Shown here piece by piece: positions 4,765 to 58,000 of a DNA stretch of 64,000 bases; positions within the stretch are counted from its first letter, which is position 1, and every line of letters starts with the position of its first letter. The notes beneath the pieces were generated by a model, which was not told where the DNA came from, made no database searches, and saw nothing but the letters and a program-made list of their open reading frames with translations. This stretch comes from Coriolopsis trogii. Lineage: Eukaryota > Basidiomycota > Agaricomycetes > Polyporales > Polyporaceae. The stretch covers positions 1,302,001 through 1,366,000 of the forward strand of contig JAHYIO010000039.1 in the NCBI GenBank assembly GCA_020543525.1. The letters are read 5' to 3'. The position numbers and the translations under genes are program-made.

Positions 4765-5868
4765 TCACCGCTGGCAAGTAAGGTCGTCGCCTTCCGGACC
4801 CGCAATCGTTGTCATGCCAGTACACATCCATAGTGCCCATTCCAAGGCAAGCTCGTCCCTATAGGTATCGATCCAGAACGGATGTACGGCGTCCCAAAAC
4901 TGCTGCATCTTGAAGTTGTGCATCGCGTGGCATTCGATCATCGTCAGCTCCCAGTACTCGGGGTACCAGCCAGAGTGATCCCAATCGAGGATAGCGGCAA
5001 GCCGCCCGTCCTTGACAAGGATGTTGTAGCCATGAAGGTCTGCGTGCGTGAAGCAGATGCGATGCTGTTTCGCACGCACAGGTTCGAAGAGCTGGCGGAG
5101 TTTGGGCATGCGATGGGCGACGGCTCCGCCGACACGCTGCAGGAGGTGGTCCTTGAAGTCCTCTTGAGAATCAAAAGGTCCGATCGTCTCGAGCTCTCCA
5201 CATCGGACTGTGCGAAGTGGGCGACCACCCAATCGCGCCACAGCGGGAGGATCTGGTGGCGGGATTGCTCGAAGGCTGGAGAGTGCTTGGCGGAGGTCTG
5301 CGATGAGGTCGTCACTGTCAGTAAGGATAAGAGTTGGGGGCGGGAGAGTTTTGAGCTCGTCGGAGATACGCCAGAACGCTGTGACGTCGTCGCTTATTAT
5401 CGCAGCATTCAACCCCGCCAAAAGAGCGTCCCGTCGCGGACTCTCCTCAGCAGTCCCATGTCTCTCGATCCAGCTGCTGAGAGACTCTCCGTCAATCCAA
5501 GTCATTAATATGAAGCTGGCCTTGTCGGGAGTATCACTGGCTACAGCGTCGAGAAGGGCAGGGGTTGGGACCGTCGTGTGCTGTCGAACAAATTGCATGC
5601 TTTCCGCCTCGGGATATGGTGATCCATCAACAGCTTTCAAAGCTAGGCCGTACGGTAGCTGTGTGACGGAGGACATGGGGGTAGATCGGCCAAGCTTATG
5701 TAGTCGCAAATAACACGAGTGTCGTATGGAGACGGGGAACAGCCGCCACAGTGCCCAGATGGCCTTGACCTTGGACACATAGCAAATGATGCGTAGCAGT
5801 CTCGGAATATGAGACACTGACAAAGATGAGTGGGCAGATGTGTAACCAGTCTATGCAAACTTACCCAT
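4765..5868 (-). CDS. APH-fold phosphotransferase-like protein
   Basis: The main exon is the complement of 4765-5816. A GT-AG intron (5817-5864) separates it from an upstream exon that contains ATG at 5866-5868; the same frame stays open further upstream (TNTVDRIRELELIAM), so the true start may be earlier. The protein has the kinase-like catalytic core of the aminoglycoside phosphotransferase superfamily: HADLHGYN (catalytic HxDxxxxN) and ILDWDHSGWYPEYWE (metal-binding Asp). This family is strongly expanded in mushrooms, where most members have no known substrate. It should not be read as an antibiotic-resistance gene. A hydrophobic N-terminal stretch (IICYVSKVKAIWALW) could be a membrane contact. 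Confidence 0.75.
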
Positions 5869-9405: not shown

Positions 9406-11831
9406 TCAAATGTCTGCTAGTCCTGCAGCTGTGAGTTCCGTGAAAATGTTCTCAGGAATTACACGGTGTCCGCGGTATTTCTTGCTCGCCCACGCAGCCT
9501 GCTTGCCATTGAGTCCCTTCATGTATGCATCAGCAAACCGGAGGGCACGTGTATAGAACCTGCAGCAATATACTGTGAGAGGTGTACAACTAAACAGGAG
9601 TAACCAGTATAACTCACCGGCGCATGCACTCAAGAGGAACAGCGTCAATAGAATCCACCAGATTTCTCTCCAGGTCCGCCTCCTTTGAAGACGGGGGCTT
9701 CAAGCGGTACAGTCGCTTGGCGTAGCCCCAGCATTGCTCAATGGGGTTGAGCTCGCAGTGAAACTTGGGTAGAAAGAGTACTTGGCAGCCAAGCGCCTCC
9801 ATCTTGATTTCGAGCAAAGACTTGACGTTACGGAAGTCGGGCTGTTCGTAGAGAAGTCGCCGACAGCAGCAGGGATGATGTGTGTAATGCTCAAGAGGGA
9901 GGACACCAGCAGGGGGAGTAGGGCATTGGAATTTGTCGCACTGTACACGGAGCTGGTCAATGCCTGAATATTCACGCTCCTTGAGGAGACGTGCCATTCC
10001 CTTGAAGGCACCACGGAGGTCGGGGTCGGGATGGTCGTCAGGGAAATAGAGAGCCTGGACGGCACCATTCTCGAGTGTTGTGTCGGTCATGCGGATGCGC
10101 TTCTTCTGCACCTTGCCGTCGGGGGTGTGAACAGGCTTGCCATTCTCGTCCATAACACTAACGTCAATGCCGAAATTGCGCGATGGGTTCTTCGGCATCT
10201 GGCGGGCAGACAGCGCATCGGGAGCTCGCTTCTGGTGAGTCGGGGCGTTGTCAACGACAAAGACGATGTGTTCATGGGGCCAGCGCACTCGGGAGATCTG
10301 TGCAGCGAGACAGAATTGCTCGATGACATCGTCACTGTTAAAATAGCCATCTCGATTCTTTCCTGGACGGAACAGACGCCGCGCAGCCTCTTTCCCGTCC
10401 TCCGACCTCAACCAACCATCCTCTGCACTAAAGAAGTCCGATATCATCATTGATACACCCTCGCCCTTTGCCCGGGGGACTGCCTTCTCGTCTTTGTGGG
10501 TCCACCGGGTGGTCCGGCGATCATTGGCATAGAAGATTGATTCGTCATGCCACAGAATACGAGCACGTTGCACAGGGGCCGCAGGAGCTTGTGAATCGCA
10601 GGCAGAGGGCTCGAAAGGAATGGAGATGGGTGGAGAGAGCGGAGCAGGAGGGAGACTGAGCAATGGAGGTGTGTATTCATGGCCTTCTGCTGTGTACTGA
10701 CGGAGTCGCGGACGGAGAGCAGCCAGGGTGGGAAGGAAGACATTCTGTCGGTAGCGAACGACGTCCTCGCGCTCATGCCCATCGACAAATTGACCATTCG
10801 GAGCCTTCTTCCATCGGAAACCAAGATCGTGCATCCATGCCTGGGCCGTGGCAAGGCTGACCGTGTCCGTGAGCGCGTGCTTCTCCTGAATATCCGCTCT
10901 TGATAGGAATTCAACGATGTCGAGAGCACGGACATTCTTCCCAATACTCTGCAGGTGCGCCGAGATATCCTGCTCCAATGCTTCGTCTTCTAGCGGGGAT
11001 TTGGTCCATGTGTTCGGAATAGCAATGGGAAGAACGTGTCGGTCGGCAATGAAGTTGCGAGTCCATTTCCGGAGTTGCTTGGCCAGGTAAGCCCCGCGAT
11101 CGTTCACGTCTGCTGCCAGCACTGATGCCTCTATCCATTCCAACCTAAAGGAGGCATAGTGGTACAAGAAGAGCTTCATCATCTCCATCCGCTCGCGCAG
11201 CATATCCGTCCCTGCAAAGGGTACACGACGCTTTCCGGACGGGTTGCGAGGCTCGAGAAGGGCTCTGAGATCACGGAGCGCGGTGCGCGCAACCTCCCTG
11301 TCTGGCGGAGGAACCCACAGGTCTTCAGGTGTTGGAGCCGTACCCGGCACCCTTGCGACAGGACCCGATTGAGGCCAGCCATGCCGGGAAGCTGTCTCAG
11401 ACCGGATGGGACCGTGTGTAGGGCCGAGAGATGGAACAGAAATTGACACATCTTGACAGGACGTGGGAGAGCCTCGAGAATCAGAAGGAGGTGCTGACCA
11501 GGTGGGTGTCGAAATCTCTTGAAATGTGCTGCTGAACCGGCGCTGTACAAGTGCTGCAAAGCCTGGCTCCGTTGGAGTTGGTGTGCGCCTCAATCTAGTC
11601 TCTACACCTGAACCTTCAGGCTGAATCAAATAGTAAGTAATATGCTTAGCCGGCTCAATGCAGCAAACTCACAATGTTCTCCTTGTCCGCCCGAGAGATC
11701 TCCTCGGAGCCCGAGCCTCTGGGGTTCTCATGCCTGTCGAAGCTTGGGAGCAGTTGGGTGATTCTTCGCCGGAGGTTGTTCCTTATGTCCGCAAAGGACT
11801 GCGAGAGGCCCCGTTTGCGACCAGAGCTCAT
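9406..11831 (-). CDS. DDE transposase of Tc1/mariner type (771 aa)
   Basis: Three exons (complement of 11673-11831, 9618-11620, 9406-9559) join in frame to 771 residues. The first exon starts MSSGRKRGLSQSFADIR. The middle carries a DNA-binding region ending in a fungal hallmark (LGFRWKKAPNGQFVDGHE). The catalytic core has the three acidic sites: ILWHDES (first D), FVVDNAPTH (second D, about residue 510) and ELNPIEQCW (E, about residue 680). The NPIE-W signature is that of Tc1/mariner transposases. The second D and the E are about 170 residues apart instead of the usual 34-37, because of an insert rich in Cys and His (CDKFQC, HHPCCCRRLLY). A C-terminal tail (GKQAAWASKKYRGHRV) follows. No stop or frameshift interrupts it. 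Confidence 0.88.
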
Positions 11832-16065: not shown

Positions 16066-18740
16066 ATGTTCACCTCCGTGTCTGCTTTGCGGACAAAGCT
16101 ACCCTTTTCGCTCAGGCCGACCAAGCCCGACGAAGTCCAAACCGAGACTGTCGTGGTCGACGACTTGAAAGTAGAGTCGCTAGCGAGCGATGTAGACGAT
16201 GATGCGTCGAAGGAGCTCGTAACTACGTTGGACCCAGATCTCAATCCGGGTGAGCTGACGTTCGAGGAAGGTATGCAACGTTGAAATACTCTTCTGGAGG
16301 CGTTAGCTGACTGACTTTACCAGACATCGCCGGCGGAATGGGCCGCCATCTGGGGGTGTTCAGTTGTACGCTCATCATGTAAGTTTCGCTCATCTGGTGG
16401 ACTGTATGGAGGTAGGCGTGGACTTGGAGTTCTTCCCTCCAGTGCCTCTGCCCGGCCTCCGAAGTGATGCTGTGACTGACAGTGCCAACAGCGTCGGTAG
16501 CATCATAGGCACCGGGATCTTTGCCACTCCTTCGTCTATCCTAGGTTCTGTCGGCTCTGTCGGCGCATCCTTGATGGTGTGGATTCTCGGCTTTGTCCTC
16601 TCCTTCTGCGGACTCTTCATATGGCTCGAGTTCGGCACGATGTTCCCTCGCTCCGGTGGAGAAAAGGTGTACCTTGCAGCAGTATACAAGAAACCAAAGC
16701 ATCTCTCCACAGTCGTTTTCGCTGCAAACGCGATCGTCTTGGGCTTTACTGCCTCACAGTGCATCGTGAGTCGCGTCTTACCGTCGTCGATACATTGGCT
16801 GAGAGACCGTCATTCAGGTTTTCTCAGAGAAGTGGGCTGTTTACTTGTGCGCCAGTTCGCTGGACCTCATGGCCCACCTATACTTTCACAGCATCCTTGT
16901 AGCGGCGGGTCAGCCTGCAGACCGGTGGGTCTCCCGGGGCATAGCAATTGCTGGTATGAAGTACCCTGCAAGGAGATCACTCCCATACTGACTTCGCACT
17001 GTCCACAATCATATAGTGATCACGTTCGCAACGCTCGTACATGGCATCGCGCCCAGATTGGGAGTGATTACCATGAACGTAAGTTCTGCCTACTTGCTGT
17101 CGCGTGCGAGCTATGCTTAAGGTCGTCAAGGTCCTGAGCCTGTTCAAGATTTTCCTCCTCCTCTTCGTAGTTGTCACAGGTCCGTTATTTCGCGAAAATT
17201 GTAGATTCTGAACTGGCCGACTTCATTGACTGCTCCTCAGGTTGGGTCGTCCTCTCCGGTCATACGCACATTCAAGACCCACGTGCAAACTTCCGGAACG
17301 CCTTTGCTGGCAGCTCGAATAGCAGCAATGACGTGCGTATCTATCCCCAGCGCATGAAAGGTACCACTTCATTCACCTGGAAACGACAGTACGCTACAGC
17401 TGCATTCAAAGCCCTCAATGCCTACGCCGGGTGGGCGAATTTAAACTATGTGCTCAACAACGTCAAGAGTCCGGTGAGAACCTTGAAGATTGCCGGGCCG
17501 TTGGGTCTTGGAATCTCGGCGGTCCTCTATCTCTTCGCAAACGTTTCGTACTTTGCGTGAGTGTGTGGACTTCATCATCGTTTGGATGGGACGTATGTCA
17601 ATGACGCGCGATTGTATGGAAAGTGCTTCCACGAAGGAGGAGATTTTGAATAGCGGAGTAACAGTCGCGAGTCTCTTCTTCCGCAACGTGTTCGGTCCTC
17701 AGGGGCAGACAGCCTTGACAGTCTTCATAGCGTTAAGGTATGATCCATGTCGTCCAAGTCACATCTCAGACTGAGCTCCGATCAGCGCTCTCGGGTAAGC
17801 CTACCAATCGGCCTCGGAAAAGAGTACAAAATGCTGATTCACGAACTACGCATAATGGCCTATATGCAGGGTAAGCGCCTCTCTGGAAGAACTCCTCTCT
17901 ATGCACTGTATGCTGACCTCGATATACATGTAGAATGCTATTACTGTGGTGTGTTAATCAACCATTACATGGAGACTCAAACATTCTCATAGTATGCATC
18001 GCACAGACGTTCACATACTCCCGCATCAACCAAGAACTTGCAAAGGAAGGTATTCCTCTCCCGTTCGGAAACCGGTTTTGGGCGTCGAACTGGCCGACTG
18101 GAAAATCTCCGCTCCCGGGCCTGCTAATACATCTCATCACCTCCGTCGCGGTAATTATCGGACCGCCGCCCGAGGTCGCTTTCCCATTCATACTCGACAT
18201 CGAGGGGTATCCGCAGCAGATCATCAATTTCTTCGTTGTGGTTGGGCTGTTCTGGCTGAGGTATCACAAACCGGATGCGCCACGTCCCTTTAAAGGTGCG
18301 TAGTTTGTGCTGCGCGCCACCGTTCGAAAAGCTCATGTCGTGCGACGAATGGCAGTGTGGTGGCCTCTCGCCGTGTTCTTCTTGGCTGCATCCATCTTCC
18401 GTGAGTCCCGCGCCGCATTCTGGACTAGGATGCCGTCTAATAGTGACGATAGTGCTTGTTGCCCCGTTCCTGCCGCCCGCAAACCACGTCGGTGACACCC
18501 CTCCTCTGCCATATTACCTATATTGCCTGGTGGGCATTGCCGTCACCGTCTTTGGGGTTCTGTACTGGGCGGCGTGGCGTGTTGTTCCGAGATGGTTCGG
18601 TTACGAATTTGTGCCACGTAAAGAGACCTTGTCCGATGGAACGACGGTCAGCGTGGTGCGTCGCACAGTCTCCAGTCTCGTGGTGGGAACGCTACTGACT
18701 GGCTTGTCATCGGCAGTTTTCGTCAAAGAAGATCGAGTAG
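16066..18740 (+). CDS. Amino-acid permease of the LAT family, high-affinity methionine permease (MUP1)-like
   Basis: Seventeen exons give 567 residues and about 12 hydrophobic segments. Exons: 16066-16270, 16324-16378, 16492-16765, 16818-16846, 16892-16953, 17017-17078, 17122-17179, 17241-17332, 17390-17556, 17624-17737, 17786-17794, 17880, 17934-17948, 18007-18295, 18356-18400, 18453-18655, 18717-18740. The transporter start is VGSIIGTGIFATPSS, the APC-superfamily loop that holds the substrate; LNAYAGWANLNYVLNNVKSP and SRINQELAKEG are further family blocks. It should import methionine or related amino acids across the plasma membrane. Residues 1-70 form a hydrophilic cytosolic tail. Exon 11 has 9 nt, exon 12 a single G, exon 13 has 15 nt; without the one-base exon the conserved ALSALGN-AITV-TF block is out of frame. 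Confidence 0.87.
17880..17880 (+). other. Candidate single-nucleotide exon of the permease gene
   Basis: One G between the acceptor TATGCAG (ending 17879) and the donor GTAAGC (17881). The introns on each side have their own CTGAT and CTGAC branch-like sites. Adding this G turns GG|AAT into Gly-Asn and makes the coding length 1,704 nt, a multiple of three. Confidence 0.65.
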
Positions 18741-29876: not shown

Positions 29877-32687
29877 CTACGACGTCGACCACAACGCAGA
29901 GGCGGTTCTGACGACATCTCCTAGATTCAACACATCGTGTACGCGAACAACGCTCGCGCCCTGTTGTACCGCACAGCTAACGGCTGCCGCTGTTGCAAAG
30001 TCCCTTTCATCGGGCCGTGTCTGCCTCCCCTCATAACTATCGCCTTCCACGCTCCGCTGCTGCAGGATGGAACCCAAGAACGACTTGCGCGATGTCCCGA
30101 TTAACAGCGGATAGCCTCCGAGAGGATTCTTCGACGGTCTCGACGGCGGGGCCGTCACCTTCCTTAAGCGAGGCGAGTATTCGGCCACCACGCTTGCCGC
30201 GGACCGTAGGAGCTCGAGGTTACCTTCCAGAGTCTTGCTGAACCCGATACCTGGGTCGACGATGACTTGCCACCGCCTGATCCCTCCCGGACCCTTCACC
30301 GCTCTCTCCACCTTCTCGCCCAGCTCGACCCGCACGCCCTCCAGCACCGCCCCCTTCCCATCCTCGTCCGCCGCATACGCATACTGCCCGTACTCCTTGT
30401 TCTCCCCAGGCGGTCCGCGCGAATGCATGAGCACAACCGGCACAGCAAGATCCCGCACCACCTGGCGCATCTTCGCAAAGTGCGTCTCCGACCGCGCGGT
30501 GGGCGGCCAGTCGGGCCCGCTGAACGCGCACACGTCGTTGATGCAATTGGCACCTGCGTGGACCGACTCCTCTGCGACTTCCCACCGGAAGGTGTCGACA
30601 CTGATGAGCGTGGTCGCCGTGCGGGCAAGGAGGGAGGGGTGTACGTGGCCTGCGGGCTGCGGTGTGAGATGCGCCCCTTCTTCCCGGATCGCCTGCACGA
30701 CGGGGACGACCCGGGTGAACTCTTCTTCGGGGGAAACGAACGCAGCGCCCGGGCGAGTCGAGTAGCCGCCAATGTCAATGATGCTCGCGCCATTCGCCAC
30801 TGCTGTGGTCGCGTATGATAGGGCATCCGGAAGGGTGTAATGCGCGGAGCCGTCCGAGAATGAGTCTGGAGTGGCATTGAGGGTGGCCATGATGTACGTC
30901 TTGCGAGTTACCTTCTTTCCCTTGGAAGGATATGAGGTGATAGGATAGGTCCAGTATGTAGCGGTCGGGGGTACGCGCGGCAACCTTGTCATGAAGGGAG
31001 ATTGGGGCTGGGTATGCGGTAAAGGGTAGCGCGGAAAGGGAATGACTTTGTACATCGATGGGGCATTCGTCGGCTGTTCCATGAGAGTAGAGAGCAGCTG
31101 CGACACGGTCTTCCCGACCGTAGGTACGATGTATTCGGGCACCATACTGTGGCACGGATACGTCAGTCAATGCAGGGAGGAGGTTCACGATAGACGTACT
31201 CCGCGATTGGCCTCAAGACAAACTCTCGCTCTGTGAGCCGAGGATGCGGGATGACGAGTTCGCCTATCAGATTGTCTAAGCTACCTCGAGCCGCCTCAGG
31301 TCGAGTGTCCATGACAATAGAGTCGTATGTCACGATGTCCAAGTCAATAGCCCGAGGCCCGTTCCGGAACGTCGCAGTACGCCCCACAGTGCTCTCTATT
31401 TGCTTCAAGAACGATAGCAAAGCACGCGGTTCCAAATCTGTCTCAACCTGAGAAAAAATATTCCTATGTTAATCACAATAGTGGGATAGAGATGCACTGA
31501 CCATACACGCGCAGTTGATAAACTTCGGCTGGTTTTCGACGTACATTGGTGCGGTCTCGTACAGGAAGCTTGTGTCCACCACCAGCATTCTCGAAGGACC
31601 GACCCATTGCTCGAAACTCGCTCCGGGTGCTTCGAGAAGGCGTAATGCACATTCGATATTGGAGAAACGATCGCCCATATTTGCTCCTATTGCAAGTATC
31701 GCACAGTGGGGAAGGGATGTGCTCTTTGGTAAGACATAATCCGTAGGGCCGACCGAGTTTGGAGATGCGCTATCAGCGGATGTCCCGGCCACTGTGGATG
31801 TCGCCGTTGACGAAGAGGCACGGAAGTCGGCAAGCGTGCGCCCCACTTCTACCTCTGCGGAATCCGCGCCGACGATCGCACTGGGCTTTGAGATGCGTAC
31901 AATGGCTTTGGAGCTGACATCGTCCAAGATGGTGAGTACGGTGTGAGCGACCTCCGAAGCCAACGCTTCAACAGTAAGGAATTTCGATGCCTCGACAAAC
32001 TGCGAAGATATTCTAGTAAACAATTTGAGATAGTCAGGGCTTGACTCACGTCAAAGATCTGCTGCTCCAAGATACGAAAATCAAGTGCTTTCTGGCGAGA
32101 CAATCGCCTGTTGACCGAGACATTGACCCGAACGCGTTGTTTACGCAACCGCTCGTGTGGATGGATCCCGATGACGGCATAGCACAGGATGTCCTGGAAG
32201 AAGAACGTCTCCTCGTCGGGCTTTTCCTGGATCGCAAGCTTCGTGATCTCGATGCCAAACGCAGCGCCATAGAGCAACGTCTTGGTTCTCGCGATTCGTA
32301 CCGTGAAAGAGGGGACGTCGGGATACTGCGCCGCATACACCTCATACACGCGATCGGCGAGCGCTTCCAAAGAAGGAAAGACCTCGGTGTCTACGATCGC
32401 CTTCATGCCCGACGCGAGAGTGGAGTAACTGACCGAGTGCGCCAGGTCGTCGGTAGCGGCCGCTGCTGAGACATCGTGGGCGAAGCTGAACGTGAGAAGG
32501 ACAGGCTGAGCTTGCGGGGCGGAGGAGGGCCAACGCGAGCCGTCCGAGAACAAAACGGTGAGTGCGAGATCGTTGACGCGGATGCGGTCCCGAGGCTGCT
32601 GGGGTGGTGGGTTTTGCTGCTGGGCGGACAAACTGTACGATGCAGTGGGTATCCACGAGCATATCCAAGGCTGCGTACGCACCTCAT
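29877..32687 (-). CDS. FOL1: Trifunctional folate synthesis protein (DHNA aldolase, HPPK, dihydropteroate synthase)
   Basis: Starts at 32687 with a tiny exon (ATGAG), then a 47-nt intron, then LSAQQQNPPPQQ; roughly 850 residues. Domain order is that of fungal FOL1. Two FolB-like dihydroneopterin aldolase repeats come first (DLALTVLFSDGS... and FFFQDILCYAVIGIHPHERL). HPPK follows (AILAIGANMGDRFSNIECAL; later NGPRAIDLDIVTYDS and IPHPRLTEREFVLRP). Dihydropteroate synthase ends the protein (IMATLNATPDSFSDGS, DIGGYSTRPGA, LISVDTFR, IVDPGIGFSKT, LIGTSRKSFLG, RVHDV). The three activities run from dihydroneopterin to dihydropteroate; the last is the target of sulfonamide drugs. In yeast the protein is mitochondrial. 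All signature loops are present. Confidence 0.93.
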
Positions 32688-48208: not shown

Positions 48209-51200
48209 CTAGTCCTTGAGTTCGTAGTACGAGCGGAACATCGACTCGGTGCGGAGCGTAGACGACGAGATGACGCCGTGCACGTGGAGGAAGAGATGAG
48301 GGAAGCGCTTTGTAAAGTACGCCAGGAAGCCCTCGGGCATCGACCCGAGCAGCCGCTTCACGTTGTCCGGGAGGTCCTGGTAGTGGTGTTTCTGCGAACA
48401 CACAACACAGATTCCGTCAGCTCTCTCGCCACGCACAAATCGCATTAGCGGGGCAACTCACCTTATTCCGCAGCGCGCGCAAGAGGTCCTGCACGGACTT
48501 GCCGTCGTACTTGCGGAACTTGCCCAGGTTTTCGATAAACAGCTTGTCGAGCCGCGAGTGCCAATCGGCGCCCACGACGTCGTATGCGCCGGTCTCGAGC
48601 GCGACGAGGTTCGCGTCCTTCGGGTCCCGACACATGATCTCGAACCGGTCCGACGCGTCTTGCAGGAACGTGAGCCGCTTGCCGGGGTCCCAGAAGTACG
48701 GATGGAGCAGGCATGTACTCGTATCCGGTCTAAACCAACATCCCTCTGTTAGTTGTGAAAACCAGCTCGGAACGGAGTACGCAACGCACCTCTCGTACGC
48801 CTCTGGACTGAGCATCTTCGTGATAAGGTCCATGCCCTCCGCGCCCTCCTCCCCGAACCTCTCCAACCCCTCGAGATGCTTCGCGTTCTTGAGAATGTTG
48901 AACTCGCGCTCGAACCGGTCCCCAAATGGGTGCAGCCCGTTCGTGAGCACATAGTAGTACAGGCACCCCAGCGCAAAAATGTCCACCGACTTCGTCAGCC
49001 GCGTCGGCTTCCCCGTCGGTGTCCCCGCAGGCCCTCCCGAACCGCTCCCGACGCCCACGCTCCCTCTCGACGACTGCGACTCATCCCCGGCGTCGTCCAG
49101 CTTCACTTCGCCCCTGAGGATCTCCGGAGCCCGCCACCCGACCGTGCCCGCGGCCATCGAGCCGTGCGCAGTGGGCAAGAAGCTCGTCTGGTCGTACTCG
49201 AGCTTCTTGCACAGCCCAAAGTCCGAGATGAGCATCCGGTGCCCCGCGTTCTCCCCCACACCCTTCTTCGCGTCCGAGACAAGTATGTTCTGCGGCTTGA
49301 TGTCCCGGTGGATGATCTTGAGCGCGTGCAAGTGTCGCAGCCCCGCCGTGATCTGGCGCAGCGCACGCTTCGGCTCAAACGCGACGACGATGTCCCGGAA
49401 TTGGTCTGGTCGCTCAATGACGTCCGCGAGCGACGCCGGGCATAGCTCGAGCGCGATGTACAGAAAATTCGCGTGCGCCTCCTGGTAGTAGTACCGGATC
49501 ACGTTCGGGTGGTCGTCCGATTCTTGCAGCACGTTCACCTCGCGCGACGCGAGCGTCACAAAGTCGGCCAGCATCCGCTTCACGGCAACCGCGCGACCTT
49601 GCAGTGACCCCTTGAATACCACCGTCCCGTGTGAACCCATGCCTGGGCGCCATATGGTTCAGTCAATCAAAATGAAAGACACCGAAGACGCGATACATAC
49701 CTAGAATCTGGTCCGACACCACCAGCGTCGGAACGGCGGGCACAGGTGGAGTCGAGGGAGCAAGGAGAATGGTCGGCGCCGGAGTCTTGGGTGTCTCCTG
49801 AGTAGGCGTGGGTTCTGCCAACAGCTCGACTTCGTCCGCTGGGAGTGCGATTGTGACTGGGCCCTTCTTCTTCCCCTTGCCCCGCTTCCGCCTGATGCCC
49901 TTCTTCTTGCCAGTCGGGTCAGGTGCATCTCCGTCCTTGTCCGTGTCTTCGCCCGCATCAGTGAGAGCGCCAGTCACAGGCTCGAGAGCTTCTGGTGCGA
50001 ACAGGACCTTCTTCGCGTTGGGCAGCTCAGGGGTAGGAAGGTCCGATGGATCCTGCGCATGGCCATTGCCAACCTTGTCCGTAATTTCTGGGAGCGTAGC
50101 GTCCTGAACGGGCTTCGTGACGTCCTCGGGAATGTCGACAGGAGCGGAGACCGGGACCGCGGTTGGTGGAAGGGGACTAGGGCCAAGGAATTTCCGCACT
50201 GACATCCAAACGAGCAATACGATGGCACACAACGCGAAGGCAGAGAACGCCTGCGTAGGGCCACTCATTCCCAGAAGCCCAGCCGGCGGCTGCTCGTCGA
50301 CATGATGGCCGTCAGAGCCATTTCCCCAGGAAGGTGGAGGTGTCCATGAAGCGTTGTCGGGCTCGGATGGTCGCGGGGACGGTACGAGGGGGTCCTCCCG
50401 GACATCTATGGCGTTCGAGTTGTGCTGCTGGGATATCCCTGTCTGAGGCAAAACAGAAGGCGCCCCATCAAGCAAGCGGCTCAATCTGGACTGACTGTCG
50501 GACCCTAGCTTCCTAATACCGGTCAGGCAGCGAATGTCTGAAGACCCGTTCTTGCACTCCTCCAGGAGCTTGCGGGCTTTGGCTATCCGTGCGGCACTTT
50601 CAACGTCAGGTGGGTAGTCCTTGCCGTATTTGTACGTAGGGTCGAAGACGGCGCCGGGCGGTGGGTCGATAGACCGCAACCGGTTCTCGTTGGAGTCGCC
50701 AAAAACGACGAGAGGGAAACGGTCCGGGCTCATGACGAAGAGTGAGCCGGTGTCCTCGACAAGTCCGACGTATGCAGCGTCGAGATTTGGTAGGTGGCGC
50801 TGCTTGGCGGCCGATGTGAGATCCACAGAAGGGAGGATCTCTTGGAGGCGAGGTTGAGGCTGGAGAAGAACAAATGGATTCTCCCGTTTCGGTGAACGGA
50901 GAACATCGAAAGTGGCGACTCTGTTGAAATTCAGTATTAGAGCCAGATAGAGGGGGCTTCGGGACTTACATGGGCTGACGGAATGAGTGATACCACATGA
51001 GATGTGCGTTGGAAGAGGCATCGGACGAGTCTGACGCGGGGGTTTTGAAGGAGATTATCTTGCCAGAGGGAAGCGACTGTATATAGGTATTGTCGGCAGT
51101 GTGCTGGTAGAGAGTCTGGAGAGCATGGTCTTGATTATTGGGACCATATGTGGAGAAGGATAGTCTCTGGACGTGCGGACGACCTCCGGAGGAGCCAGTA

Positions 51201-52489: not shown

Positions 52490-54579
52490 ATGATCTCCAG
52501 GCGGGCAATCTCCTCGTTGCGACGCGCCCCACTTGCCCGTGGTCTCTCCACCCGAGCTGCCACAATCCTCCATGCCCTGGATATCCGCCCAGAGTCTGAA
52601 CTGTCCGGCGTATACGATGGAGAGTGGTCGGGGTCTGGAGAGTTGCTAGAGAGTGTATGTCCGACGACTGGGGAGGTATTAGCACGCGTTAAGACGGTAC
52701 GTGGCTATCGTCGTGTGCATCGTACAAGTCGGCGACGAGGCGCTTACTGTCGGTGGACAGGCATCTCATGCCGAAGTGCAGAGGGCACTTGAGCGCACGA
52801 GAGACGCGTACAAGGTCATCAGGAGCATCCCCGCACCGAAACGCGGCGAGATTCTAAGACAAATTAGAGAGGCCCTAGCGGCGAAGGTGAGCACGCCTCC
52901 GGGAGTTGAAAGTTGGGCTGAGACAGACTATATGCGCACAATGTCTAGCGAGATGACTTGGGAGCACTGGTATCCCTCGAAATGGGCAAAATTCGGACGG
53001 AGGGCGAAGGCGAGGTGCAGGAGTTCGTTGATATTGTGCGTCCATTCTCCTCGAAACGCGGGTTCATATTCACAGAAGAAGCCGTTGTAGGCCGACTATG
53101 CTGTCGGTTTGTCCAGAATGATGAACGGCCGTGTCGTCGCGTCAGAACGACCAGGTCACAGCATCCTTGAAGGTAACGTACTGCACGACGTCCTGTGACA
53201 TACCGCCTTCACTGACGCGGTATTGCAACACCCAAGTCCCCAACCCGCTTGGAGTAGTCGCCGTCCTGTCCGCATTCAATTTCCCCGTCGCCGTGTACGG
53301 CTGGAACCTCGCACTCTCCCTTACCGCGGGGAACGCGACGCTTTGGAAGCCCGCGCCCAGTACGCCGCTCTGCTCCATCGCGGTGACGAAGATTGTCTCC
53401 AGCGTGCTGGAGAAGAACGGCATCCCGGGCGCGGTCGCAGGCCTCGTTACCGGTGGCAAGGACGTGGGCGAGACTATCGTTGGGAGCACCAATGTGGACA
53501 TGGTCTCCTTCACAGGGAGCGAGGCTGTAGGGCGCGAAGTCGGAAAGGTTGTCCAGTCTCGCTTCGGCAAGGTCCTCCTCGAACTCGGCGGGAACAACGG
53601 TACGTTCATACTTGGGTGTCTCGTCTGGACCCAGCTCGTCCGCTCACTCTGCACACAGCTGCCGTCGTGATGCCGGACGCGGACCTCGACATGGCCGTTC
53701 CGGCTGTCTTCTTCGGTGCAGTTGGAACCGCGGGCCAGCGTTGCACATCCACTCGCCGCCTTTACCTGCACTCGTCCGTCGTGCAGAAGTTCCTCTCTCG
53801 TCTCGAGTCGCTCTACCAGTCTGTCCGCCCAGGAGACCCGCTCGACCGCTCAACCCTTCTCGGACCCCTCCATTCCCGTGCGGCCGTCAGCATCTATCAC
53901 AACGCTGTCGACCACCTCCACCAGACTGGCGCCGAAATCCTGTTTGGCGGAGCGTCATACCGCGACCTCCCTGCGCCTCTCAGTGGCGGCAACTTCGTGA
54001 TGCCGACCATCGCCATCCCGCAGGAGGTGAACGTGAAGGATAGAGTGTGGAGCACGGAGACGTTCGCTCCTGTTCTCAACGTCGGTGTCTTTGACGACCT
54101 TGAACAGGCCATCGAGTGGAACAACGGTGTCCCTCAGGTAAGCTCATGGCTGTTCTCACGGTAATTTCGTGCAGGAACGCTCATTGTGCATATATACAGG
54201 GCCTTAGCAGCAGTCTCTGGACGCGTGATATCCGCAACGTGGGCAAGTGGATCGGCCCCGCGGGTTCGGACGCAGGGATCGTCAACGTAAGTCGTTCGTT
54301 TGCAAGGGAAAAGAAGAATGTTGGGTGCTGATGGATCCCCATAGGTCAATGTTGGCACAAGCGGTGCGGAAATTGGTGCCGCGTTCGGTGGAAACAAGGT
54401 GTGCATATACCTTAATTCTGTTGCCCAAGCTCACGATGTATAATACGCAGAGTACTGGGTGGGGGCGCGAATCTGGTGGAGACGCATGGAAGCAGTACGT
54501 GCGCTGGAGCGCGTGCACGCTCAACTTCTCGGACGAGGCCCCTCTGGCACAGGGGGTGCAGTTCTCGAACACAACGTGA
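52490..54579 (+). CDS. ALDH7-type aldehyde dehydrogenase (alpha-aminoadipic semialdehyde dehydrogenase-like)
   Basis: About ten exons and 510-520 residues. The N-terminus ([20 protein letters not shown]) is rich in Arg/Ser/Leu and lacks acids, a mitochondrial presequence. Conserved blocks are [34 protein letters not shown] (NAD-binding Lys), [21 protein letters not shown] (catalytic Glu) and [13 protein letters not shown] (catalytic Cys). FNFP, RCTSTRR and the tail [17 protein letters not shown] are ALDH7/antiquitin features. Human ALDH7A1 oxidises alpha-aminoadipic semialdehyde in lysine breakdown; other ALDH7s act in osmotic and aldehyde stress. In fungi the role is less clear. The gene shares its promoter region with IRE1. 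Confidence 0.9.
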
Positions 54580-55089: not shown

Positions 55090-58000
55090 CTAGTTGAGAG
55101 TCCCACGACACTTTGCGGAACCGCAAAGGCAAGGTATCTTGTCCTGTTCAATAGGGAAATGATAATCTGTAGTCAAAGTCAGCAATGTGCGAAATGCAGC
55201 TGAGATGCAAGTCAGCGCGGCGTACCATATGTGATCTCACTGCCAAGCTCAATGTCCTGCTTCGCATATATCACGATCTTCTTCTCCCCACTGATCGTGA
55301 TAATCTTCGCAGTGCAGTTGGGGTCGCACGAATGGTTGATGAGACGGCTGCAAACTCGTCAGCCTACAACGAAGACGCATGACACCGCACGGGCACATAC
55401 CCAAGGTTCCCCTTCTTCGTAGCATCCACCACGAGATCCTCGTCGATGCGGAAGAGATAGCTACTCCCGATACCCTGTCGCTCATACGCCTTCTCGCGCT
55501 TGTCTGCAACCTGCGCGCGAATGACCTCGCCGACATACTCGATAACAAGGTCTCCGCGGTTGATCTTCTCCATCGCGTACAGCCCCCAGTCGTGGATAGG
55601 GGAGCGCGCGAACCGCAAGTGCTTCTTCCGCGTCTGCAGCTGGTTGTACTTCACGGAGTCCGGAGCAGCCGCCTCGCCCTTCGACAGCGCCATCGCTCGC
55701 TGTACCATGTTCATCTCCTCCAGCCCCTGCGCACGGCGACGCGCGTTGGCTCGGTTTGAACGCGACGAAGTGACCGCTTTTGGCGCAGACGGAGCATGCT
55801 CTGTTTCCGCCGCGACTGTCGCCGTCGTGCCGCGCAGGGCGTACTGAGCGACGTAAGCGGACTTCTCGGCGTGCGAGATCTTGTAGTACCCTTCCGTACG
55901 TGCTGAGCCTGTGAGATGCTTCCGGAACGGCTTCGGGTTGTCCGGGTCGTCCTCTTCGGCCTCTGGTTCCTCTTGTGGCGCGGCAGACTTGCCAAAGAGC
56001 GAACGCTCGAGCGCGAGCTTCGCGAAGTACATCTCCTCCTCGTCCTCGCAGATTCCCTCTGCGATGGGGTCGATGACGATTTCGGGCAACGACTTCGTGG
56101 GTGCAACAGGCGATACGAGCGGGGAGTCGTATGAAGTGATGCGCACCTGAGTAACTGATGGCGGCTCGAAAGGCAACGGCTCCGGAACAACCTGATGCAC
56201 CACCTCGTCCTCGAACACACTCGCCCCTCTGGAGTCCTGCACGACCTCGGCGACAGCGCTCTTCTTGATCTTTTTGGTACGGCCGACCTTGCCATCCTCC
56301 AGGGCCTGCTTAGTCTTTGTCTTTTTCTTGACAGGAACCTCGAGATCGCTCGCTTCCGACATGGCGCGTTTGCGCTGCTGCTGCGGCAGTTCAGGAACGG
56401 GCGTAGGCGCAGCCTCTTCGTCCTCCGACTCGATAATCCGCTCGACGACGAGCTTGGACTTCTTGGACTTCTTCTTCGGCCGCTCAACCGCCAGCTCCTC
56501 CTCGTCCAGAGTTTCCGCCGGGGTCGGAAGGTCAGCAGATACGACCTCAATTGGCTCTTCTCGCGGTCGTTTCTTCTGCTTGCGGAACGAAAGATTGCGA
56601 AGCCCGTTGCGGTCAATGTACTTCAAGTCCAAAGAGTCGACGACCTGCGCAACGTGACCGTCCAATGCGACAGGCTGTGTGCGGGCCGTAGATTTGGACC
56701 GCTCCTCCACTATCCGCCTAGCGTGCGGCGCGACCACTCGCTTGTTGATGTCCTTTTCCAGCACCTTCTTGAGGTCACGAAGGATGGTCATCTCAGCTTG
56801 TTCCAAGAGCTCTGCGTCGGTCCAATGCGTCTTGAAGGCAGTCGGGATGTGGGTGGGAGCAGGTCGTACAGTGACAGAGACCATGTGGTTCGCGAGCGTC
56901 CGATTCATGGCGTTGAGCACGAGAGAAGCACGTCGTGCCGAGTCCGATGTCTTGAAGGTGACATACCAACTATGTCGATCACGAAGCACCTGATTGTTCA
57001 TGGTTTGCTAAGCCCTTGAACGTTCGGTAGTAGGGGATGATACGCACCTCGTCGACAGGAAACTCGGCAAGAAACTTGCGCACCTCCTCCTCCCCACCGT
57101 TGCCCATATACCCATCAATGGCGATGTGTTCGTATCCGTTCTTCGCCAAGGTCGCTTTCACTACCTCGTAATCCACCTTCTTTGAGCCTCGACCATAGCC
57201 AGGCCGCCTGGACACGGGTGAAGGCGACCGCGAGGGAGGTAGCGGTATGGGGGATGGAATAGTCTCTCCTACGGTGATATTGAAGCGCATACTCGGGGGA
57301 AGGACCGGACCACCCGCAATACCGTTCGGGAAGAGGTGGATGGGAGGACGAATGTTGGCGGGAGGTACAGCACGAAGGACATGCATGCCACGGCCCCGAA
57401 AAGGAGCGTTTACAGGCCGACGGACCTTTGCAGGGTGCGCAGGACCGTTCCGTGGACCTGTGGGCGTCCCATTCGGGAGCGGACTAGTACTGTCGTGCAT
57501 GGGCGCCGGGGAATTAGACGACATCGGGGTGAGATGCGGGCGCATGGGGAGATGCACATTCGGAGGTGGCTGGCGCGGAGCATGATGCTGCTGTCGGGAT
57601 GGTGGAGGAACACCACCCGTCAACGCCGTCCTCCAAGGGTTGTTGGCGTGCATGGGGTTCTGCGCATGAACGGGAGTATGGCTAGCACTTGATGCAGGAG
57701 TATGCTTCAAATGCACCGACCCTGACTTCTCTTCCTTCTCTTTCTCCTGTCTCCGCTTCTCTTCTCGTTCTCGTCTGCGGCGGTGGTCCAACTCCGCCAT
57801 CACGGCCCTGAGCAACTTGCCCTCTCGATCGTGGACAACTCTTAACGCTTCACCCTCACCCGCTCCAGGGATCGCCAGTGAAAGTTTCTTCCCATGCTCC
57901 GCATCTACACACTTCTTCGCTTCTTCCTGAGTACTGAACCTGATCGAGACGATCCCAAGCGCAGCACCAGTCGACTTATCAATTTGTGGCTCGAACGACA

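Follow-up and report, generated by a model that had tools for sequence, protein, structure and literature searches.

The single G at position 17870 of the window (the whole 64-kb stretch of DNA that was analysed) is very probably a constitutive coding exon of one nucleotide in a permease gene that is spliced by the spliceosome. One nucleotide lies directly between the AG and the GT of two canonical introns in this gene and in two paralogs from the same genome. A sequence-only reading had interpreted the isolated G as a 1-nt exon, and the analysis described here supports this interpretation at the level of genomic DNA.

The permease gene, its micro-exons and its paralogs

The gene for a Mup1/LAT-like permease spans 2,675 nt on the forward strand (16066-18740). 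A homolog-guided model, in which three splice sites outside the micro-exon cluster were set by homology, contains 17 coding exons. The resulting coding sequence comprises 1,680 nt including the stop codon, instead of the 1,704 nt that had been claimed before, and codes for 559 residues. The protein from an initial gene model matches PF13520 (AA_permease_2) with an E value of 3.7e-79; at 267 bits, the match exceeds the cut-off of 27 bits, which by the Pfam threshold makes the protein a permease of the AA_permease_2 or LAT type. A profile of its homologs matches b(0,+)-type amino acid transporter 1 (6li9, E 2.6e-50), and the glycine that is completed by the single base aligns with a glycine of this transporter. 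The nearest among the listed matches are polypore amino-acid transporters or "high affinity methionine permeases". Identity to the homolog from Trametes coccinea is 76% with the initial model; for the corrected model, the shared core is 82% identical. A putative amino-acid transporter is the likely product; the name methionine permease is taken from database records of the homologs.

The micro-exon cluster reads ..GCGTTAAG/GTATGA..GATCAG/CGCTCTCGG/GTAAGC..TATGCAG/G/GTAAGC..ATGTAG/AATGCTATTACTGTG/GTGTGT..GCACAG/ACGTTC, with slashes at the predicted splice sites (Table 1). The sequence-only reading had correctly named the acceptor TATGCAG and the donor GTAAGC on the two sides of the G, the flanking exons of 9 and 15 nt, and the branch-like motifs CTGAT in intron A and CTGAC in intron B, which we find 32 and 17 nt before the respective intron ends. 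Its position for the G, 17880, is off by 10, and the introns that it gave as 85 and 53 nt measure 75 and 63 nt. The predicted mRNA would read ..GCTCTCGGGAATGCTATT.. across the junction with the 1-nt exon and ..GCTCTCGGAATGCT.. without it.

Table 1. Predicted features of the micro-exon cluster and further ORFs in the window
Feature	Position	Strand	Basis
114-nt exon preceding the micro-exon cluster	17624-17737	+	gene model, spliced aligner
48-nt intron preceding the 9-nt exon	17738-17785	+	gene model
9-nt micro-exon CGCTCTCGG	17786-17794	+	gene model, path enumeration, aligner
Intron A, 75 nt, GTAAGC..TGCAG, phase 2	17795-17869	+	gene model, aligner
Predicted 1-nt exon G, third base of Gly codon GG/G	17870	+	gene model, path enumeration, aligner, two paralogs
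Intron B, 63 nt, GTAAGC..TGTAG, phase 0	17871-17933	+	gene model, aligner
15-nt micro-exon AATGCTATTACTGTG	17934-17948	+	gene model, path enumeration, aligner
58-nt intron after the 15-nt exon	17949-18006	+	gene model
289-nt exon, frame dependent on the single G	18007-18295	+	gene model, aligner, dN/dS downstream 0.058 against C6
Pterin_bind ORF	29877-31145	-	domain match
N-SET + SET ORF	55364-57001	-	domain match
Aldedh ORF	53223-54164	+	domain match
APH ORF	4765-5823	-	domain match

Another intron of the permease gene (16832-16891, 60 nt) is in frame and free of stop codons, and the homolog P0051, from a 2.1-kb contig, contains extra residues at this place. Based on these two observations, retention of the intron may give rise to a longer permease isoform. 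Elsewhere in the window, the ORFs with Pterin_bind, N-SET/SET, Aldedh and APH domains look like ordinary fungal genes. An ORF on the reverse strand (48417-49640) contains Pkinase and Ribonuc_2-5A domains, a pair typical of the unfolded-protein sensor Ire1. A long ORF on the same strand (9614-11629), with a weak match to the DDE_3 endonuclease, probably codes for a transposase.

A protein search of the same genome (38.8 Mb, 39 contigs), to which the comparison at the DNA level is confined, identified two close paralogs on contigs C28 and C6 that are 77-80% identical. Both can be read with exons of 9, 1 and 15 nt (9-1-15) at the same codon, as CTCGG/GTGAGT..GACAG/G/GTGAGT..TCCAG/ATC in C28 and as CTTGG/GTGAGT..TATCAG/A/GTGAGT..CGTAG/AAC in C6. 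The immediate surroundings of the single base are TGCAG/G/GTAAGC in the window gene, GACAG/G/GTGAGT in C28 and ATCAG/A/GTGAGT in C6. In each gene, the base (G, G and A, respectively) is the third of a glycine codon, and the A in C6 is a silent change. Since the third base of a glycine codon is four-fold degenerate, the identity of this base would be free and only its presence would matter. Given the 9-1-15 reading, exon lengths are equal across the three genes from the 274-nt exon onward, with the cluster edges of C28 set by hand. In three more distant paralogs (C5, C25 and C1), the conserved block runs through a single frame without interruption. Alignment of the window gene with C28 and C6 across introns A and B scores no better than with shuffled sequences (z -0.07 to 0.34). 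C28 and C6 resemble each other to some extent in intron A (z 3.0) but not in intron B (z -1.4). The three copies share ancestry and are therefore not independent events. Among the matches listed, the C6 protein is 90-91% identical to those of species of Trametes, Lentinus and allies. This identity and the tree described below place the fungus close to these genera. Three protein searches for a transcript of the same species found none, with a best listed identity of 91% (C6 as query), and an alignment-based search of viral contigs and genome contigs for related loci beyond this genome gave no relative.

Requirement for the single base

When the G is omitted, the window gene reads SALGMLLL and terminates four residues after the join. 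This agrees with the earlier claim that the conserved block and all that follows are shifted without the isolated G. We enumerated the GT-AG paths from the 114-nt exon to the exon coding for TFTYS, admitting no intron shorter than 40 nt. Only 23 of the 100 paths in the window are in frame and stop-free. The best of them (score 59) contains the 9-1-15 exons and produces the peptide SALGNAITV, and the runner-up (score 49) likewise includes the single G. The best path lacking exons shorter than 3 nt (SALGMLLLWC, score 29) loses the SALGN block. The 9-1-15 path is preferred in all three genes, with 71 versus 60 for the path without a tiny exon in C6 and, by a small margin, 57 versus 54 in C28.

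A custom spliced aligner, which used a profile of 120 homologs, allowed frameshifts at a cost of 25 and contained no rule on small exons, arrived unprompted at the 1-nt exon of the window gene. Masking the acceptor of this exon costs 23-29 units in the window gene and about 14 units in C6. The aligner selected the exon at both intron costs in C6 and only at the lower one in C28, where the higher cost led instead to an exon of 28 nt behind a weak acceptor, TAAG. The small path margin and this dependence on intron cost make C28 the weaker witness.

We estimated the chance expectation from 5,000 dinucleotide shuffles of the 139-nt stretch of the window gene and of its counterparts in the paralogs. 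The pattern YAG/N/GTRNGY with at least 40 nt on each side appears at a frequency of 0.0012 in the window, 0.006 in C28 and 0.0264 in C6. Any exon of 3n+1 nt and up to 40 nt is possible at frequencies of 0.012, 0.040 and 0.139, respectively. The strict motif YAGNGTRAGY occurs six times on both strands of the window, the permease site included. The five other matches were read by eye; two of them (12918 and 58350) belong to ordinary exons, where they fall in the interior or at the end.

An alternative is that the 139-nt block is one intron with a non-canonical cut, shifted by one base (GT..TA with its last G retained, or TA..AG with its first G retained), that supplies the G. Such a cut is permitted in all three genes, as intron A begins with G after GG and intron B ends with AG. 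In each of them, however, it violates the GT-AG rule and offers no explanation for the internal YAG/N/GTRAGY, which all three genes contain although the introns of the window gene have ceased to align with the others. We consider this explanation very improbable.

Purifying selection is strong downstream of the exon. Between the window gene and C6, the overall dN/dS is 0.063, with 0.071 upstream of the cluster and 0.058 downstream of it; a dS of 1.84 places synonymous sites close to saturation. Downstream values for the other pairs are 0.046 (window gene and C28) and 0.113 (C6 and C28). Since dN/dS is low where the frame needs the extra base, the downstream frame has been maintained by selection. 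In a tree of 59 rows, the three genes cluster together with weak support (83/67), and their branch lengths are 0.11 for C6, 0.47 for the window gene and 0.52 for C28. At 179 nearly invariant columns, the window gene and C28 depart six times each and C6 never.

The longer branches and the departures of the window gene and C28 are compatible with another explanation, in which a G was dropped from a G run by sequencing error or by a true frameshift, and the gene is misread or dead. The lost base would indeed sit in a G run. Against this stand the purifying selection that persists downstream and the same one-base gap, with an internal acceptor and donor, at three separate loci. The spliced aligner required neither a frameshift nor an internal stop over the aligned window gene. 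We regard an error or a dead gene as extremely improbable.

Protein models of related species

The SALGNVIT stretch contains insertions or gaps in 24 of the 120 homolog rows. Other conserved stretches are affected in at most 5 of the 120 rows, except LLPKVFGY (43/120), where we presume natural length variation. Scored by string, 28 of 120 proteins are not clean at SALGNVIT; inspection by eye added 3 of 22 and 2 of 3 more. A pattern search found both micro-exon peptides intact with extra residues exactly between them, at the SALG/NV junction, in 12 of 145 proteins (P0005, P0011, P0012, P0017, P0050, P0064, P0072, P0100, P0102, P0131, P0143 and P0144). One of these proteins is from Cyathus striatus (Agaricales). 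Abortiporus, Sparassis and Trametes, also among the sources, belong to the Polyporales. The remaining sources are presumably polypores.

The inserts in these 12 public models are probably annotation errors. Six of them (P0005, P0050, P0072, P0100, P0131 and P0143) start with V and continue with C, S, G, C, R or S, as would happen if a gene finder took AG/N for the acceptor and read on through a donor GTNNGN. Two others (P0064 and P0102) consist of Y alone, as if an intron A donor GTATGT had been cut four bases late. Both decodings are our own, and over-reading of an ordinary phase-0 intron would equally produce strings that begin with V. The 9-nt exon alone could account for many of the failures at this junction.

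All 19 proteins from jgi/lgn-only sources are clean, compared with 92 of the 123 others (Fisher p 0.0135), a comparison that is confounded because several of the site strings are Suillus-like and Suillus genome models are clean, too. Thirteen of the 19 are encoded on contigs of 2,430 nt or less, shorter than the 2,675-nt gene, and are thus probably cDNA-like.

The failures of relatives' models at the junction hint that the 1-nt exon may be widespread. A bolder proposal, which we consider rather doubtful, extends the 9-1-15 cluster as an ancient trait to the whole family of methionine-type permeases in Agaricomycetes. The wobble base would then specify nothing in the protein and persist purely as a key to the frame, retained when splicing proceeds correctly in two steps, while splicing in one step would lead almost at once to a stop codon; the speed or fidelity of splicing would in this way gate the uptake of nutrients. 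If this were true, the exon would perhaps be the most widespread fungal 1-nt exon, overlooked for want of gene finders able to place it. The exon would also offer a reason for the recurrent failure of the family's public models at one spot, and gene finders for mushroom genomes may need an option for 1-nt exons.

Probable order of splicing and comparison with known single-nucleotide exons

The acceptor of intron A and the donor of intron B together fit into a stretch of ten bases, and the two sites can hardly be used simultaneously. Most likely, therefore, introns A and B would be recognised by intron definition and removed in sequence. Either order would produce CTC GGG AAT (Leu-Gly-Asn), in agreement with the earlier remark that stepwise (recursive) splicing that keeps the G gives an identical mRNA. 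The branch-like motif is located 17, 16 and 14 nt from the end of intron B in the window gene, C6 and C28, and 32, 33 and 20 nt from the end of intron A; intron A of C28 contains a second loose match at 35. The closer position in B suggests that this intron is removed first, and we would expect this order. The motif CTRAY is found only in both introns of the window gene and in intron B of C6, while the remaining introns fit a looser motif. From these data we infer that the sites are used in vivo, the order in which the introns leave and the presence of the exon in other species.

Each gene has one and the same hexamer as the donor of intron A and of intron B: GTAAGC in the window gene (17795-17800 and 17871-17876) and GTGAGT in both paralogs. 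A within-gene permutation, done post hoc, assigns a P of 0.0009 to this pairing. The pairing would suit a regulated switch, in which the 1-nt exon is real and removal of all 139 nt in one step leads to an early stop that tunes permease output; without the single base, the stop follows after 4, 4 and 15 further residues in the window gene, C28 and C6. However, skipping of any exon with a length other than 3n shifts the frame, and GTGAGT is the commonest donor in these genes anyway (12 of 47). The donors may match simply because both need to be strong. We consider such a switch unlikely, and the constitutive exon remains our preferred reading.

Three related arrangements were also considered. 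In contrast to a stwintron, donor B is intact in all three genes (GTAAGC, GTGAGT and GTGAGT) and begins one base past acceptor A. At a zero-nucleotide recursive splice site, the acceptor abuts the donor (AG/GT) and no base is retained; here, one base separates AG and GT in all three genes. Programmed ribosomal frameshifting on an mRNA without the G was set aside on general grounds.

Exons of one nucleotide are rare, as the sequence-only reading had stated, and the published list is short. Its figure of one reported case, in Arabidopsis, is outdated, given the examples of APC11, VPS55 and CYP621A. A literature search of titles and abstracts, in which subscription journals were thinly covered, found no 1-nt exon from a basidiomycete. 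Within the literature searched, the permease would thus add a fungal phylum (Basidiomycota), as well as a gene family, to this very short list. Nuclear 1-nt exons are already known; the permease exon is distinguished by a third base that is free to be G or A, by the 9-1-15 cluster and by its three copies in one genome. Three copies with the exon, two with G and one with A, together with three uninterrupted relatives amount to a natural experiment, whose outcome suggests a base that can vary but is retained. The A in C6 in place of G also makes the splicing model testable.

The closest parallel is the 1-nt exon of CYP621A from Fusarium, which is backed by SRA reads and was described by its authors as the first in a fungal gene (PMC12940212). 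In that nuclear gene, too, a lone G is reported to sit between AG and GT, within a two-intron stretch of about 139 nt in F. graminearum (PMC12940212). It is likewise essential for the frame within a conserved motif, has an intronless relative that serves as a length marker, and is missed by gene models that are wrong at this place (PMC12940212). In CYP621A, the base is the central one of a glycine codon and is therefore fixed (PMC12940212); the permease base is the third and may be G or A. The exon with SRA reads is from an ascomycete (PMC12940212), and the permease exon, predicted from DNA, belongs to an unrelated family in the Basidiomycota.

Among plant genes, APC11 contains a 1-nt exon that is reported from Arabidopsis (PMC4674806) and from land plants (PMC8831610). 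Like the predicted permease exon, it is coding, and its base can be changed without harm to splicing, as tested in protoplasts for APC11 (PMC4674806). Copies with introns and intronless copies exist in both systems (PMC4674806, PMC8831610), and removal in two steps has also been argued for APC11 (PMC4674806). APC11 differs in being a plant gene of another kind, with an exon that was shown by experiment (PMC4674806, PMC8831610). The 1-nt microexon of VPS55 from land plants is followed by a conserved GTRAGT donor (PMC8831610). This exon resembles that of the permease in being conserved, in the donor after it and in having been missed by annotation; it differs in its plant origin and in the documented isoforms with and without the exon (PMC8831610). 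For plants, read aligners are reported to overlook such an exon at times when the annotation does not supply it (PMC8831610). A further 1-nt exon has been reported from placozoan mitochondria (PMC5436844). Finally, fungal stwintrons share with the permease two adjacent introns that need to be removed consecutively (PMC5639578). In the [D1,2] type, the external intron has its donor interrupted by the internal intron (PMC5639578), whereas in the permease genes donor B is whole and one base would be kept.
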